Shown here one piece after another: positions 10,796-42,772 of a DNA stretch of 64,000 bases. Source of the stretch: Planctomycetota bacterium (lineage in GTDB: Bacteria; Planctomycetota; Phycisphaerae; Phycisphaerales; Phycisphaeraceae); contig CP066225.1 in the NCBI GenBank assembly GCA_016350165.1, positions 2,232,001 to 2,296,000 of the forward strand, given 5' to 3'. The position numbers were made by a program, and so were the translations under genes. Below the pieces are notes generated by a model. The model saw only the letters and a list, made by a program, of their open reading frames with translations, did no database searches and was not told where the DNA came from. Each line of letters opens with the position of its first letter. Within the stretch, counting starts at the first letter, position 1.

Positions 10796-12466
10796 TCACT
10801 CTTCTTCAGTTTCTGTAATCAACTCCAGATATAACTCTTGTTTCTCTTTAAGTTTATCGTAGTAAGCCTGTGTATTCTGTGGATGTAGCTCAAGTAGAAT
10901 ATCATTAACTTTCCCCTGTTTTTCAGATGGAAAACTGATCGCAGTCACCACATCCGTATCCGAAACGGATTTCCCGAAGACCTGATAACTTTCTACGTCA
11001 TAAGCATTTGCACGATTATCTGTTCGATCGTGGCCGGGTGTGTAAATGAGATAACCGTTATTAGTATGCAGATATTTGTATTGCGTTGGTTCTTCTGGAG
11101 TCAATTCATACGAATACGGATCGGTTGGCACTTTTTCAATATAGACTGGAACCAGTTCTAATAATGTATTAGGTAACAGGGCATGTTGAGTATCAGCTTG
11201 AGTACTCATTTGTATTGAATTTACATCTCTATTCGCTAGATAGAATCGCTCGACAGCGATAGCGAGTTGAAGTGTATTTTGTTTTTGATTGAGTTCGACA
11301 ATTGATTTGTAAATACTATTAAATGAGATGTATGACATGCGTGTATGAATGTTTAACAAGACAAATTCTTTTTCAATATGTTGTTCAATACTCTTGTAGT
11401 TTGGGTGGATAGATTTTAGTTTTTCCTCAGCGAGAAGTTGCGCTTCAAGTGTAGAAATTATGTCAGTTTTGAGCATGCCGAGATGCTGTTGCATTTCGTA
11501 TAGTTGTTTGTATTCAGTTGTTTTATTGTCGAACTCCATCTTTTTGGCCATACGTTCAGGCTGATTTATTGCGAGGTCAAAATAATTGAGCATGAGCGTG
11601 GTTTGTGTACGGTGTGCGTGAAGCGCGGTTTGCTGTACAGGAATTGGGGTTGTGAGTTTGTAAAGGGTTTGGAGTTGCGCATCATTGTAGATGTGTTGAC
11701 GAAGGCCTCGCTCTATTTCGGTGTTGAGACATGAGTAAATGATGTTTTGATAAATGACTGCATAGGCACCGAGATCATTTTCAAGTGATTGGGCTAACTT
11801 GTGAATAGACTCAAGCGCACGAAGCGATTCGTTTGGTTTATTATCATGAACGGCTAGCCAATGATAGAGAGCGAGGTGCTTGATTGCGTTTCTGATCTTT
11901 TTAAGATGAAACGGATAACTATAGCTTGTAATGTTGGGGTCGATTGGCCAAAAGTTTTGCTGATGAGCTGGGAGATTGAGGAGCGCATCGATATTTGTTT
12001 TTTGGCGATTTAAGTAGTCGCGTGCAGCTTGGATGAGCTGCGGTGGTGGTGGCTGGTGATTGGCTGCCCAGTCAGTGGGTGCTTCGTGATCTAAGAATGG
12101 GAGGAGCGTGTTGATGTATTGCTGATTCGATTGCGCTTCTACGGTTTTAAGGTTGTTGTCCTGTTCGAACTGGTGTTGGGTTTGCTGAAGTTTGTCGAAG
12201 TGAAAGCTCAGGTATTGAGTGAGGTTTGGCCCTTGCAGTTGCTCGGTTTTATTGATGTAGTCTTGAACGGTGAGGAGATTATTGGGGAGTTGCGTACGGA
12301 GTGTTTGGGTGAGCGAGTCGATTTTGCTGTTGAGATGATGATGCCAAAAGAAGTAGATAGCGATGAGAATGATGAGTAAATAACGCTTGCGAAAGAAAGG
12401 ACGCTTCTTTTTTTGTGGCTTAGCGAGATTTGGTGTCTCTGATTTTTCAGCTTGCTTTTCAGTCAT
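10796..12466 (-). CDS. membrane-anchored paralog B with pseudopilin-like tail
   Basis: A 556-residue protein if it starts at the ATG at 12466 (an in-frame start at 12529 overlaps the remnant ORF upstream by four bases). Basic N-terminus, one membrane segment ('YLLIILIAIYFFWHH'), then a long helical domain that aligns with paralogs A and C. The C-terminal ~120 residues carry 'LLELVPVYIEKVPTDP' and 'NNGYLIYTPGHD', the pattern of the calcium-loop tail of GspG-type pseudopilins and of related planctomycete proteins. Two copies of the dispersed palindrome lie inside it (11158-11172 and 11229-11243). Top-strand composition changes polarity within this gene. Function unknown. Confidence 0.7.
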   Translation of the reverse strand: MTEKQAEKSETPNLAKPQKKKRPFFRKRYLLIILIAIYFFWHHHLNSKIDSLTQTLRTQLPNNLLTVQDYINKTEQLQGPNLTQYLSFHFDKLQQTQHQFEQDNNLKTVEAQSNQQYINTLLPFLDHEAPTDWAANHQPPPPQLIQAARDYLNRQKTNIDALLNLPAHQQNFWPIDPNITSYSYPFHLKKIRNAIKHLALYHWLAVHDNKPNESLRALESIHKLAQSLENDLGAYAVIYQNIIYSCLNTEIERGLRQHIYNDAQLQTLYKLTTPIPVQQTALHAHRTQTTLMLNYFDLAINQPERMAKKMEFDNKTTEYKQLYEMQQHLGMLKTDIISTLEAQLLAEEKLKSIHPNYKSIEQHIEKEFVLLNIHTRMSYISFNSIYKSIVELNQKQNTLQLAIAVERFYLANRDVNSIQMSTQADTQHALLPNTLLELVPVYIEKVPTDPYSYELTPEEPTQYKYLHTNNGYLIYTPGHDRTDNRANAYDVESYQVFGKSVSDTDVVTAISFPSEKQGKVNDILLELHPQNTQAYYDKLKEKQELYLELITETEEE

Positions 12467-17560: not shown

Positions 17561-17756
17561 GGGGGCATAATCGTTCAACCGATATGGCTACGTAATGCTG
17601 AGTCAGCATGGCCCTGCACATGAGGGTATCGTGTTTTGATAGGTAGTGGTAGGCTATGAGGTTGAAAAAGATTGGTCTGATTCGGTCGTGTCGAGTGCAT
17701 GCGACTGAAGAATGCGAACAAGATAGAAGCATCAGCATCAGAAGTTCGAGGTAATA

Positions 17757-34709: not shown

Positions 34710-34746
34710 AAGCACCTCATAGCCCACTGTGAGGTGCTTCTTTTTC
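34710..34746. terminator. bidirectional terminator between DinB and SulP genes
   Basis: 10-bp stem AAGCACCTCA / TGAGGTGCTT with a 10-base loop, followed by T. Confidence 0.85.
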
Positions 34747-36476
34747 TACTTATCTTTCTTCTTCTTTTTATCCATCTCAAACTCAAACTTCTCAACCGCC
34801 TCACCAATCTCATCACATATATGCTCATCACCCACATGATCAAGCAGCCCTTTTTTCTTCATCGCCAATAACGGTTGCTCCTGCGCTCCAACCAAATACA
34901 ACTTCACCTTACGCTGACCACACACACGTATAAACGTCTCAAAATGATGCAACGCCGTCGCATCCATCACAGGCACATCACCCATCAACACCAAAATCCC
35001 CTTCACATCCGTCCTGATCTGCCGCGTCACATCCACAAACTTATCAACCACCCCAAAGAAGAACGGCCCATTAATCTCATACACCAACAACCGCGAACCA
35101 AACTTCCTCATAATCTTCCGACGTATCGCAGCATCATGCAGCCCCACCCGCCCCGTACTCTTCTGACCAAACATCCCACCCACTTCCTGTACATCCGCAA
35201 CATCTGCCATCCGTTTCATAAACAGAAACACCGACAACACCAGCCCCACCTGCAACGCAACAACCAACTCAAACACAACCGTCATCACAAACGTCAGCAG
35301 AAAAACCATCCCGTCACTCAACGGCCCCTTCCCAATATCATGAAAAGCATGCCAGTCCGCCATGTTGTAACACACAACAAACAGCACCGCCGCCAATGCT
35401 GTCAACGGAATCATCTTCGCATAAGGCATAAACACCAGCACAACCAATAACACCGTCGCCGAATGTACTAATCCCGCAATAGGTGTCCGCGCACCATTCT
35501 TCGCATTCGTCGCCGTCCTTGCAATCGCTCCCGTTGCAGGCATCCCCCCAAACATTGCTGCGCCCACATTCCCCAAACCCTGGCCCACTAACTCTGCATT
35601 AGACCTGTGACGACTCCCAATCATCCCGTCCGTCACCACCGCCGACAATAAACTCTCGATCCCCGCCAAAATCGCAATCGTGATCGCAGGCCCAATCAGA
35701 CTCTGCACCATCTCACGATCCACCCCGCTCGGCAAAGTAAACTCAGGCACCCCTCCCTCCAAATCACTGAACTGACTCCCAATCGTCGCCACACCCATCA
35801 ATCCCAATTCCTCAGGCAACCACGCAACCGCCAACGTCGCCACAACAATCGCAACCAACGCACCCGGCAAATAACGCATCCACTTACTCGGCCACTTATC
35901 CCACACCAACATCACTACCAGCGAAAAAATCCCAAGCTCAAGCGTACCCCAATCAATGCTCCAAATATTCTTCACATACACCCCAACCAGCGGCACAAAA
36001 TCCACCGGCACCTTATCCAAATCCATCCCCGTAAAATCCTTAATCTGAATCACCGCCGTCAATATCGCGATCCCAGCCGTAAACCCCGTCACCACAGGAT
36101 ACGGAATGTATTTGATCATCCCTCCCATCCGCGACAAACCCATCACCAACAAAATCCCACCCGCCATCCACGTCGTCACCAACAACCCATCAATCCCAAA
36201 CTCCGACACGACCCCATAAATCACCGGCACAAACGCAGCCGTCGGCCCCCCAATCTGTACACGACTCCCACCAAACACAGCGACCAAAAACCCCGCCACC
36301 GCCGACGTAATTAACCCCCACTCAGGACTCAACCCCGAAGCAATCGCCAGCGCAATCGAAAGCGGGATCGCAATAATCCCAACCAATATCCCCGCTACCA
36401 CATCGCGCGCAAACTGATCTTTGGTGTAACCCTTCATCACCGTAAACAGCACTGGTACCAACGATCGATTCTGCAT
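34746..36476 (-). CDS. SulP-family anion transporter, copy 2
   Basis: A 576-residue inner-membrane transporter. 'VVAGILVGIIAIPLSIALAIA' is the SulP signature region and 'GSRVQIGGPTAAFVPV' the conserved glycine-rich loop. About 11-13 membrane segments run to residue ~420, followed by a cytoplasmic STAS domain ('VYEINGPFFFGVVDKF', 'VLMGDVPVMDATALHHFE'). The family moves sulfate, bicarbonate or other anions. It is a tandem paralog of the next gene upstream. Two copies of the dispersed palindrome lie inside it (35468-35482 and 35588-35602). Starts at an ATG at 36476. Confidence 0.93.
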   Translation of the reverse strand: MQNRSLVPVLFTVMKGYTKDQFARDVVAGILVGIIAIPLSIALAIASGLSPEWGLITSAVAGFLVAVFGGSRVQIGGPTAAFVPVIYGVVSEFGIDGLLVTTWMAGGILLVMGLSRMGGMIKYIPYPVVTGFTAGIAILTAVIQIKDFTGMDLDKVPVDFVPLVGVYVKNIWSIDWGTLELGIFSLVVMLVWDKWPSKWMRYLPGALVAIVVATLAVAWLPEELGLMGVATIGSQFSDLEGGVPEFTLPSGVDREMVQSLIGPAITIAILAGIESLLSAVVTDGMIGSRHRSNAELVGQGLGNVGAAMFGGMPATGAIARTATNAKNGARTPIAGLVHSATVLLVVLVFMPYAKMIPLTALAAVLFVVCYNMADWHAFHDIGKGPLSDGMVFLLTFVMTVVFELVVALQVGLVLSVFLFMKRMADVADVQEVGGMFGQKSTGRVGLHDAAIRRKIMRKFGSRLLVYEINGPFFFGVVDKFVDVTRQIRTDVKGILVLMGDVPVMDATALHHFETFIRVCGQRKVKLYLVGAQEQPLLAMKKKGLLDHVGDEHICDEIGEAVEKFEFEMDKKKKKDK

Positions 36477-36590
36477 AAATCACCACCACCCGATAACGCA
36501 CAACAGCCCCACACACCTCTACTTATATTAAACGACCACTCCTCCCCAATCCCCCCAAAATTCCCTTCATCCCCTCCGTCATCCACAACC

Positions 36591-36653
36591 CACGATACGC
36601 TTTAGTGAGACAAATCAAAATAACCGCCGATCCACGATCGGCGCGCACACCCC
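36591..36653. repeat. REP-like element, copy 1
   Basis: Shares with three other copies a left block containing CGATACGCT and a right hairpin CGCCGATC-CAC-GATCGGCG (36625-36643). Located between the two SulP genes. Confidence 0.7.
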
Positions 36654-36677
36654 TCAAACCTCACCTCATCCCCCAAA

Positions 36678-36712
36678 TAAAAAAGCACCTCACTCTATTC
36701 AGCAAGGTGCTT
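36678..36712 (-). terminator. terminator of SulP copy 1
   Basis: 8-bp stem AAGCACCT / AGGTGCTT with a T-rich tail on the minus strand. Confidence 0.7.
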
Positions 36713-36739
36713 ATCTTCTACTTCCTACAAACTTTCTCA

Positions 36740-38527
36740 TCACGCCATAACGATCTGCCCCGCCCCAATATCCCTCGCCTCAACCGCTCGCTGATCTTTC
36801 TCATATTGTCCAATCGCATCCCCAATCTCATCACAAACGCGCCCTTCACCCAGCATCCCCACCAACCCACGCTTCCACATCGCCCCCATCGGCTGATCCT
36901 GCACACCCACCAGATACACCCCAACACCCTGCTTCTGACACACCCGCACAAACGTCTCCAGGTAATGCATTCCCGTCGCATCCATCGCAGGAACAGCGTT
37001 CATCTTAATCACAATCCCCTTCACATCCCCCCCGATCCCAGCCCCGTTTTTTCGAGTCAGGTCCACAAACTTATCCGCAGCCCCAAAAAAGAACGGGCCA
37101 CTAATCTCATACACCACAAGCTCCTCCCCATACTTCCTCATCAGCTCACCACGCAATTCCCCATCATGCAAAACATCCCCCCCCTGTTCACCAAACACGT
37201 TCGCTTCTTCGGAGTCCAAACTTAAAAACTTCACCTCCGACACATCCGCCATCCGCTTCATGAACAGCAGCACCGCCAGCACCATCCCCACCTCGATCGC
37301 TACCACCAGATCGAACACCACCGTCAATCCAAACGTCAGCACGAACACCACCCCATCGCTCTTCGGCCCCTTCCCCAAATCACGGAAAGCTTGCCAGTCA
37401 CCCATGTTATAAGCCACAACCAACAACACCGCCGCCAACGTCGTCAGCGGGATCATCTTCGCATAAGGCATCAGCACCACCACAATTAGCAGCACCGTAA
37501 TCGCATGAACAATGCCCGCCACCGGCGTTCTCCCCCCACTCCTCACGTTCGCAGCCGTCCGCGCAATAGCGCCCGTCGCAGGTATTCCCCCGAACATCAC
37601 CGACCCAATATTCGCAAGTCCCTGCCCCACCAGTTCAGCATTCGACCGATGGTGACCACCGATCATCCCATCCGCAACCACTGCCGACAGCAAACTCTCC
37701 ACCCCGGCCAGCACCGCAATCGTCACTGCAGGCCCGATCAGATTTCGCACCATATCCCAATCCACCCCCTGCGGCAGCGTCAACTCAGGCAGCCCACCCT
37801 TCAAATCCCCAAATCGGCTCCCAATCGTCGCCACCCCGTTCATCCCCCAATGCTCACCCATCAGCACCACCCCAATCGTCACCACTAAAATCGCCACCAA
37901 CGACCCCGGCACAAACTTCACCCACTTAAACGGCAACTTCCCCCACCCCAATATCATCACAAGTGATCCCAATCCCAAACCCAGCGTTACCCAATCAATC
38001 CGCCCCAAATTCTCCCAATAGACCTTGCACATCGGCAAAAATTCGCCCGGCAGCCCCTCCACTGCCATCCCACTAAAATCCTTCAGCTGCTTAACCCCAA
38101 TCGCCACCGCAATGCCAGCCGTAAACCCCGTCACAACCGGATACGGGATATATTTAATCATTCCACCCAACCTCAAAACCCCCATCAGTACCAGCAATCC
38201 ACCCGCCATCAGACTCGCCACCATAAGCCCATCAATCCCATATTCCTGCACCACCGCATAAACCACCGGCACAAACGCCGCCGTCGGTCCACCAATCTGA
38301 ACACGGCTCCCACCAAAAAATGCAATCAAGAACCCCGCCACCGCCGCCGTATACAACCCCATCGCCGGCCCAACCCCCGACGCAATCGCCAATGCAATCG
38401 ACAACGGGATCGCAATGATCCCCACCAACACACCTGCCACCAGATCGCGCGCAAACTGCCCACGATCATAATCCTTAATCACTGTAAATAGCTTTGGCAC
38501 TAACGACTTCTGCATCTCGAACACCAT
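36740..38527 (-). CDS. SulP-family anion transporter, copy 1
   Basis: A 595-residue SulP transporter closely related to the gene downstream: same 'LVGIIAIPLSIALAIASG', 'GSRVQIGGPTAAFVPV' and 'SNAELVGQGLANIGSVMFGG' segments. It ends with a STAS domain ('VYEISGPFFFGAADKF', 'AVPAMDATGMHYLE') and a 30-residue C-terminal extension. Duplication of SulP genes is common; different anions or regulation are possible. Starts at an ATG at 38527, or at an ATG four codons later. Confidence 0.93.
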   Translation of the reverse strand: MVFEMQKSLVPKLFTVIKDYDRGQFARDLVAGVLVGIIAIPLSIALAIASGVGPAMGLYTAAVAGFLIAFFGGSRVQIGGPTAAFVPVVYAVVQEYGIDGLMVASLMAGGLLVLMGVLRLGGMIKYIPYPVVTGFTAGIAVAIGVKQLKDFSGMAVEGLPGEFLPMCKVYWENLGRIDWVTLGLGLGSLVMILGWGKLPFKWVKFVPGSLVAILVVTIGVVLMGEHWGMNGVATIGSRFGDLKGGLPELTLPQGVDWDMVRNLIGPAVTIAVLAGVESLLSAVVADGMIGGHHRSNAELVGQGLANIGSVMFGGIPATGAIARTAANVRSGGRTPVAGIVHAITVLLIVVVLMPYAKMIPLTTLAAVLLVVAYNMGDWQAFRDLGKGPKSDGVVFVLTFGLTVVFDLVVAIEVGMVLAVLLFMKRMADVSEVKFLSLDSEEANVFGEQGGDVLHDGELRGELMRKYGEELVVYEISGPFFFGAADKFVDLTRKNGAGIGGDVKGIVIKMNAVPAMDATGMHYLETFVRVCQKQGVGVYLVGVQDQPMGAMWKRGLVGMLGEGRVCDEIGDAIGQYEKDQRAVEARDIGAGQIVMA

Positions 38528-41196: not shown

Positions 41197-41256
41197 TACG
41201 ATACGCTACAGTGAAACCTATCAAGTAGCCGCCGATCCACGATCGGCGCGCTCACC
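41197..41256. repeat. REP-like element, copy 2 (downstream of RAYT gene)
   Basis: Left block with CGATACGCTACAGTGAAAC and right hairpin CGCCGATC-CAC-GATCGGCG (41230-41248). It abuts the 3' end of the RAYT transposase gene. Confidence 0.75.
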
Positions 41257-41259
41257 ACC

Positions 41260-41742
41260 TCACTCCTCACAATCATTTTTTCTAATCCAAACCACCCCAT
41301 CATGCTTAGGCAAATAAGCCCCACACAAATAATCAAAATGTTCCTGATCCTTCACACGCTTCCGACTCGCCCCTTTACTAAACCACTTACGTTTTCCATA
41401 TTTGTTATTTAATCTACTTGTCATTGAATACTTAATCCGATTCCGCAATACCTCCCACTCACGCTCATCCTCCCACCCAACTAAAACGTGCACATGCGAA
41501 ACATCACAAGAAAACCCATACAAATTCAACCTCATCAAATCCGATGACTTCCGACACACTTCAAGCAATAACAGTTGAATATCACAGCCAAACCATGAAT
41601 CATTCTCTTTGGCTAACTGAAGATAATTTTGATACGCCAAATGATCTGTATCACGAAACTTACCACCACTCCGCACATACCCCTCATCCCGGTCAGGCAT
41701 CCAACTCCCATACGCATGAAACGTAAATAGATATACAGCCAT
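41260..41742 (-). CDS. REP-associated tyrosine transposase (RAYT)
   Basis: A 160-residue protein of the Y1 (IS200-like) transposase superfamily, RAYT branch. Visible family features: 'GSWMPDRDEGYVR' near the N-terminus, 'GFSCDVSHVHVLVGWE' with the HxH metal motif, 'KRKWFSKGASRKRVKD' (W-F-S/T-x-G-x-S-R-K/R region) and a late Tyr in 'FDYLCGAYLPKHDG'. RAYTs nick single-stranded REP hairpins and are domesticated rather than self-mobilising elements. REP-like copies lie on both sides (41197-41256 and 41768-41815), which supports the call. The gene starts at an ATG at 41742, with another ATG one codon earlier. Confidence 0.88.
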   Translation of the reverse strand: MAVYLFTFHAYGSWMPDRDEGYVRSGGKFRDTDHLAYQNYLQLAKENDSWFGCDIQLLLLEVCRKSSDLMRLNLYGFSCDVSHVHVLVGWEDEREWEVLRNRIKYSMTSRLNNKYGKRKWFSKGASRKRVKDQEHFDYLCGAYLPKHDGVVWIRKNDCEE

Positions 41743-41767
41743 CATTCACCCTCGAAAACAAATCCTA

Positions 41768-41815
41768 CAACTCAAATAGCCGCCGATCCACGATCGGCGC
41801 GCTCACCCCTCACAC
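41768..41815. repeat. REP-like element, copy 3 (upstream of RAYT gene)
   Basis: Hairpin CGCCGATC-CAC-GATCGGCG at 41781-41799 followed by the same CGCTCACC as copy 2. The left block is reduced. Confidence 0.72.
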
Positions 41816-42710: not shown

Positions 42711-42772
42711 CCAACGATACGCTTGAGTGAAACAACTCAAAATAACCGCCAACCCCCGATCGGCGTGCCCAC
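42711..42772. repeat. REP-like element, copy 4 (degenerate hairpin)
   Basis: Left block CGATACGCTTGAGTGAAAC matches copies 1 and 2; the hairpin is partly lost (CGCCAAC...GATCGGCG). Confidence 0.65.

Follow-up and report, generated by a model that had tools for sequence, protein, structure and literature searches.

In the REP/RAYT systems described so far (REPtrons), as set out in the cited sections, a Y1 transposase gene has tagged palindromes on both sides, and these recur in many copies across intergenic DNA and also form arrays; different REP subtypes can accompany different RAYTs in one genome. The inverted orientation of the REPs flanking a RAYT has been called universal, and the motif NP(L/V)(R/K)xG next to the Tyr is a hallmark of the protein (Nunvar 2010, PMC2817692). 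REPINs are inverted REP doublets, with P. stutzeri named as a genome that lacks them (Bertels and Rainey 2011, PMC3116915); for Planctomycetes, tagged REPs were reported in 2013, in a paper that also describes REP dimers in direct (head-tail) orientation (Di Nocera 2013, PMC3733652). A classification of TnpA-Y1 proteins lists in its Table 1 the consensus motifs [DN]H-u-H and Y---Q, Y---NP or Y----Q, gives Y---NP as the class 2 signature and, for most subclasses, median HUH-Y distances between 58 and 67, and describes a class-3 enzyme with atypical REP-like structures in Planctomycetes (Quentin 2018, PMC6006769).

We analysed a 64,000-bp stretch (the window, bases 2,232,001-2,296,000) of the genome of the deep-sea planctomycete Poriferisphaera heterotrophicis ZRK32, a single contig of 5,234,020 bp with 46.28% G+C (1.2-Mb sample), for which a preliminary description had proposed a planctomycete pair of RAYT transposase and REP-like hairpins. 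The pair is supported by the predicted fold and catalytic residues of the protein (RAYT1), by tagged palindromes and their dispersal, by a paralogue (RAYT2) and by hairpins beside relatives of the gene; it is not new in itself, as the tagged REPs in the cited part of PMC3733652 precede it. ZRK32 shares with REPtrons, as far as the cited sections describe them, the features listed above, including arrays and different subtypes beside different RAYTs. It differs in that its RAYT1-flanking REPs are direct and none of the counted close REP pairs is inverted, in its NTAG (mostly ATAG) tag, in lacking NP(L/V)(R/K)xG, and in extra non-palindromic leaders, here called the left block (LB) and L2. Within the open-licence literature, and in the sections cited, this one-way layout differs from both inverted flanks (PMC2817692) and REPINs (PMC3116915).

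Element counts come from two sets of ZRK32 sequence: a systematic sample of 60 stretches of 20 kb, the sole unbiased set for LB and REP counts (cut-offs of ≤3 mismatches for LB and ≤2 for REP), and 1.384 Mb of 'known' stretches, in which both counts are enriched by pattern hits. Coding sequences were called with our own dicodon gene finder, which recovers the window's genes around RAYT1 (coding fraction 0.831). The within-genus comparator was P. corsica KS4, two Poriferisphaera genomes being compared in all.

RAYT1 and its relatives

The preliminary description saw a RAYT-type protein here, and the minus-strand open reading frame (41260-41745, 161 aa) does encode an HUH/Y1 protein, but not a canonical one: its Tyr motif is of the form Y---H, as in 28/28 sequences of our alignment (A1). 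A1 comprises the trimmed sequences of RAYT1, RAYT2, L061 and 25 other relatives; L060 (locus identical to L064), L066, L075, L089 and L090 were left out. Its invariant columns, in RAYT1 numbering from the second Met (codon start 41742), are H83, H85, W90, Y143 and H147 (28/28 for H83, H85 and Y143). The HUH motif of RAYT1 is H83-V-H85 and the Tyr motif reads YLPKHDG, in which Y143 is the putative catalytic Tyr. All 28 aligned sequences carry [ST]H-u-H and Y---H, with His always at Y+4, which places the clade outside every consensus signature listed in PMC6006769 (Table 1), its novelty being judged among open-licence papers and against the cited part of that one; the HUH-Y1 core is common to both, and the clade's HUH-to-Y distance of 58 aa lies within the published medians. 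NP(L/V)(R/K)xG is absent beside the Tyr of RAYT1, and Y---NP is likewise absent from all 28. T7 near the N-terminus occurs in at least 90% of A1; it is unaligned with known RAYTs and so may differ from their conserved N-terminal Thr.

By sequence, RAYT1 matches the Pfam family Y1_Tnp (PF01797) weakly (E 0.0038, below the cut-off), 16 of the 28 A1 members match it at E ≤ 0.01, and a sequence search of the PDB returned no match for RAYT1 and none for A1. The AlphaFold model of RAYT1 (mean pLDDT 92.3) matches the structures of the ISDra2 and IS608 transposases and the solved RAYT 4er8 (Foldseek 1.1e-4 for 2xqc, 3.1e-4 for 4er8), and on this model RAYT1 is predicted to have the Y1 transposase (IS200) fold. 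By Z score the model is nearer to IS200-type TnpA (14.3 to 2ec2, range 14.3-12.6) than to RAYT 4er8 (10.8, over more residues, 122), which would suit an IS200/IS605 insertion sequence with MITE-like derivatives instead of a REP/RAYT system. The end hairpins of IS608 and ISDra2 have a direct orientation, and the RAYT1 flank hairpins resemble them in this. We nevertheless hold an insertion sequence to be very improbable: ZRK32 has just two RAYT copies, 51% identical rather than near-identical and multicopy, REP matches minus control exceed RAYT copies by about 65 to 1, and the RAYT1 clade reads Y---H, not Y---Q.

The sole RAYT1 paralogue, RAYT2 (ZRK32 2360445-2360909, 51% identical), carries a D2-type REP (CCGCGGACC) on its 5' side; on inspection of its 3' side no close tagged hairpin was seen. 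With RAYT1 next to REP-A hairpins and RAYT2 next to D2, two paralogous RAYTs stand beside two different subtypes, and no RAYT gene was seen beside subtypes B, C or D or the TAGC[TC]GCGA type. A candidate RAYT remnant at 4949556, a PF01797 match near a subtype-C hairpin, proved spurious and without RAYT similarity. Counting against a REP/RAYT system are the absence of NP(L/V)(R/K)xG, the direct flanks of RAYT1, and the position of RAYT2's cognate REP on the 5' side only.

Relatives of RAYT1 occur in 32 of the 301 genomes of the order, ZRK32 counted in, and the A1 profile matches at least 57 of 392 genomes of the phylum, a lower bound because at most nine candidates per genome were scored; matches with E < 1e-30 lie solely within the same order. 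No relative was found in plasmid records at E ≤ 1e-5. A TAG-tagged hairpin stands ≤300 bp from the gene at 20 of 26 related loci, against 1/26 at a control distance of 1000-1300 bp (RAYT1 excluded; L060, L075 and L089 removed beforehand; flanks of L066, L076 and L077 short). RAYT2 (L029) is among the six misses because its stem holds a mismatch. Both flanks are tagged at 12 of these 26 loci, inverted in 7 and direct in 5. The Y---H clade adds a RAYT signature outside the published scheme, and since its genes sit beside tagged REPs, association with REPs may not depend on the NP motif.

Other Y1 genes are also present. ZRK32 has a strong IS200-like Y1_Tnp match split into two pieces at 680223-680581 (L163, L165), the second of which contains a stop; P. 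corsica has a further Y1_Tnp gene at 580601-580816 (L164). Both exceed the Pfam cut-off, and they could also act on repeats.

REP hairpins and their dispersal

Table 1. Coordinates of the features described (window positions unless a genome or locus is named)
Feature	Position	Strand	Basis or remark
RAYT1, HUH/Y1 single-strand-DNA transposase, 161 aa	41260..41745	-	ORF, invariant residues, predicted structure
REP-A hairpin, 3' side of RAYT1	41230..41248	+	exact; GTAG at 41225-41228
REP-A hairpin, 5' side of RAYT1	41781..41799	+	exact; ATAG at 41776-41779; without LB
L2 alternative leader (CCTACAACTCAAATAG) of the 5' REP	41764..41779	+	by eye
REP-A hairpin behind LB, between two SulP-type genes	36625..36643	+	exact
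Degenerate REP-A hairpin	42747..42765	+	3 mismatches; inner half mostly unpaired by eye
LB before the 3' REP of RAYT1, read as separate module	41198..41219	+	pattern match, 0 mismatches
LB between two SulP-type genes	36592..36613	+	pattern match, 0 mismatches
LB between SDR-type and Ada-type genes	42714..42735	+	pattern match, 0 mismatches
CE copy	ZRK32 4541088-4540755	-	
CE copy	L122 ~11026-11440		
Other CE copies			

The hairpin named in the preliminary description, CGCCGATC-CAC-GATCGGCG (REP-A), was recovered exactly at three sites of the window (Table 1), as was the left block, without mismatch, at its three; at the 42711 copy the hairpin is present but degenerate. The ~60-base repeat had been placed on both flanks of RAYT1. 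The hairpin does stand on both sides, but 41768-41815 carries the leader CCTACAACTCAAATAG and no LB, so the repeat flanks the gene fully on one side only. A window search with REP-A gives seven rows, since each of the three exact copies is found a second time, with 3 mismatches, on the opposite strand; 100 dinucleotide shuffles gave 0 matches. Beyond the copies in Table 1, LB and five-subtype REP patterns found none in the window; two 3-mismatch LB matches, at 17616 and 49035, are about the number expected by chance. The two tandem SulP-type transporter genes (34746-38527) are 77% identical over a 300-bp stretch.

Confinement of the repeat to 36.6-42.8 kb holds within the window but not in the genome, where both elements recur above reversed-pattern controls. 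Genome-wide, 27 hairpins match REP-A perfectly when its two middle bases are left free, and the LB pattern ACGATACGCTnnAGTGAAAC is matched 131+116 times at ≤3 mismatches (control 1+1). A pattern covering five REP subtypes gives 89+68 = 157 matches in ZRK32 at ≤2 mismatches (reversed control 12+15 = 27) and 16+7 = 23 in P. corsica (control 10+9 = 19); its exact matches number 67 and 6, so that any link between REP abundance and RAYT presence rests on n=2, the two genomes of the genus compared. Matches to a further, TAGCTGCGA-like hairpin type (≤2 mismatches) number 20 in ZRK32 and 10 in P. corsica, against a control of 0 in both; a few are single palindromes counted on both strands.

The 1.384 Mb of known sequence holds 78 tagged hairpins (≤3 mismatches) of subtypes A, B, C, D and D2, each with a characteristic 3' tail. 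At ≤2 mismatches there are 71 (A 31, B 16, C 12, D 7, D2 5), whose stems pair by Watson-Crick rules in 555/596 cells and by wobble in 13, with both-sided swaps at three pairs. Their 5' tags are ATAG (39), GTAG (14), TTAG (12), GTAA (3), ATAA (2) and CTAG (1), the hairpins having been selected for a TA[GA]-like tag. REPs of the GTAG superfamily carry GT[AG]G at the base of the stem on its 5' side; of the RAYT1 flanks one reads GTAG and the other ATAG.

The two REPs flanking RAYT1 lie on the same strand, and in the systematic sample REP pairs ≤150 bp apart are direct in 6/6 cases and inverted in 0/6, most REPs being singlets. ZRK32 thus shares with REPINs, as the cited part of PMC3116915 presents them, RAYT-linked short palindromes in extragenic DNA, and differs in this direct, mostly single arrangement; with P. 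stutzeri named there as free of REPINs, it is not the first exception. That no inverted pair occurs among the counted close REPs bears on whether inverted doublets are needed for spread.

Nearly all copies in the systematic sample lie in intergenic DNA: one of 34 REPs and none of 35 LBs (one unclassified at a stretch edge) fall in predicted coding sequence. Such a distribution would also be expected of transcription terminators or mRNA-stability hairpins that merely resemble REPs, and 19/71 REPs of the known, pattern-enriched stretches lie between convergent genes (7/34 in the systematic sample), where convergent gaps make up 11% of intergenic bases. This is extremely unlikely to be their nature, since relative to tandem genes the REPs show no strand bias (12 same, 12 opposite, systematic sample), no T-run was seen by eye after the hairpins, tag, loop and tail are conserved, and the hairpins flank RAYT genes.

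The explanation that we consider probable, with some confidence, is that RAYT1 acts in trans on NTAG-tagged REP-A and that LB is a separate directional module. RAYT1, as an HUH/Y1 enzyme, would recognise the REP-A stem plus NTAG as single-stranded DNA, cut it with Y143 and rejoin it, moving REPs in trans such that copies spread to intergenic DNA and the RAYT1 gene stays put; RAYT2 would do likewise for the CCGCGGACC (D2) subtype. Recognition of stem and tag and movement in trans are expected by analogy with IS200/IS605 and the E. coli TnpA-REP system, and binding, cleavage, mobility and RAYT-subtype specificity are inferred.

The left block and the CE repeat

The LB pattern (≤2 mismatches) is matched 209 times in ZRK32 and 7 times in P. 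corsica, and no more than twice in any of 299 further genomes of the order. That LB is part of the REP, as the preliminary description took it to be, is not well supported. The systematic sample holds 35 LBs and 34 REPs, of which only 10 of each are paired, leaving 25 LBs without a REP and 24 REPs without an LB. It is conceivable that LB and hairpin are one REP unit, with LB as its integral left end and solo LBs as truncated remnants: the distance from LB start to REP stem start is 31-35 nt in 32/33 pairs, and the sites orthologous to 41197 and 42711 in P. corsica lack LB and REP alike. We regard this as doubtful given the unpaired majorities just cited, the scarcity of REPs in long LB arrays, the joining of LB in P. 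corsica to an unrelated CAAG hairpin (CCCGCACC-GCT-GGTGCGGG, which it precedes in a 72-bp array), and an LB pair without REP that stands before a CE copy (see below) near 4541240, in the corresponding gap, in both species. LB is therefore probably not part of the REP; in ZRK32 it precedes five hairpin types. REPs without LB are often preceded by a leader like CTRCAACTCAARTAG, and L2-like leaders stand before many of them, RAYT2's 5' REP included (both by eye).

LB arrays are direct, with 71/71 LB neighbours ≤400 bp apart on one strand and spacings mostly of 44-54 and 97-115. The same holds for LB and REP neighbours taken together (118/118 on the same strand: 56 LB-LB, 31 LB-REP, 27 REP-LB and 4 REP-REP), part of the 31 LB-REP neighbours being the fixed-spacing pairs. 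At ZRK32 2430200-2431250 (L094), LB dimers form a tandem array of ~106-bp, slightly varied copies. In E. coli BIMEs, REPs form mosaics with other short motifs, and the spacers bind host proteins; a short-motif mosaic is thus common to both, and the layout in ZRK32 differs in being one-way. On inspection by eye the LB variants do not appear to covary, and the idea that LB folds as a DNA hairpin was rejected on this ground.

In the systematic sample LB clusters read on the lagging strand in 20/25 cases (p 0.004), and no significant bias appears for REP clusters (16/28), CE (11/19) or pooled elements (30/50, p 0.20); the test was post hoc over several element classes, with the origin placed by GC skew. 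It replaces a strand bias seen among the LB matches listed, which was discarded because the exact match at 796210 was missing there.

Downstream of many LB arrays lies CE, a conserved repeat of intergenic DNA whose core spans ~335 bp (Table 1). A search at E ≤ 1e-3 finds CE 44 times in the known ZRK32 stretches (28 in the systematic sample) and 17 times in the sample of P. corsica; many of these matches are weak or incomplete. CE stands ≤700 bp downstream on the same strand of 48/134 LBs and 14/71 REPs (11/35 and 7/34 in the systematic sample), and never upstream of either or on the opposite strand; LBs and REPs therefore precede CE, and inside arrays LBs may follow a REP. As a directional repeat module apart from the REP, common to P. 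corsica and often found before CE, LB would form one-way mosaics with REPs in front of CE. An Rfam search of one 1.1-kb LB-CE stretch gave no match up to E 1. At matching alignment positions some CE copies have an ATTTC block and others an AAAAC block, a variation between two states.

Comparison with P. corsica

A search of P. corsica for relatives of RAYT1 found none at E ≤ 1e-5. The orthologous locus retains the neighbouring genes (74-83% identity) without RAYT1, its two flanking REPs or the LB and REP of the 42711 element. Of 14 clusters, 40, 56 and 57 were skipped as too wide, cluster 40, the RAYT1 locus, being compared by eye instead. LB and REP are absent in P. corsica (thresholds of ≤5 mismatches for LB and ≤3 for REP) from nine of the 11 testable clusters, the 42711 site included, or from 8/10 separate gaps when 73 and 74 count as a single gap; the remaining two hold an LB pair and two weak REP-like matches, respectively. 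A candidate P. corsica counterpart of the 36591 site (L273) did not match.

The preliminary description had taken copies in relatives without a RAYT gene to speak against the pair, and this is partly what P. corsica shows, with its 6 exact REPs and 7 LBs (≤2 mismatches), which we read as relics. The absence of elements there could reflect loss in P. corsica rather than gain in ZRK32. In P. corsica the site orthologous to 2797191 lacks the L2 leader along with the REP hairpin, so leaders may travel with REPs; L2 as an integration target already in place is not supported at this site.

P. corsica has a palindrome family of its own, CAAG-CCCNNNNACC-GCC-GGTNNNNGGG-GTGT, with 43 copies (≤5 mismatches) in a 1.2-Mb sample (L212-L271) against 0 in the ZRK32 sample. 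Its stems are varied yet paired, and CAAG tops the list of 5' tags in that species with 36 tagged hairpins, jointly with ACAC, its other strand. Two inverted CAAG hairpins lie directly downstream of a different P. corsica Y1 gene (L274 2478-3150), whose putative Tyr motif, YIKRH, is Y---H by eye. These families could be the current occupants of a polar composite of LB array, REP slot and CE, older than the species split and independent of the transposase, into which Y---H RAYTs would load NTAG hairpins in ZRK32 and CAAG hairpins in P. corsica; LB, an imperfect dyad read mostly on the lagging strand, would then be a chromosome or replication site bound by protein, and the real function at host level. 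We think such a composite quite unlikely, and prefer RAYT1 acting in trans on REP-A beside a separate LB module. At 2797810 the same intergenic gap holds different REPs in ZRK32 and P. corsica, and the two, being cultured sister species that differ in their REP families and Y1 genes, make REP turnover directly testable.
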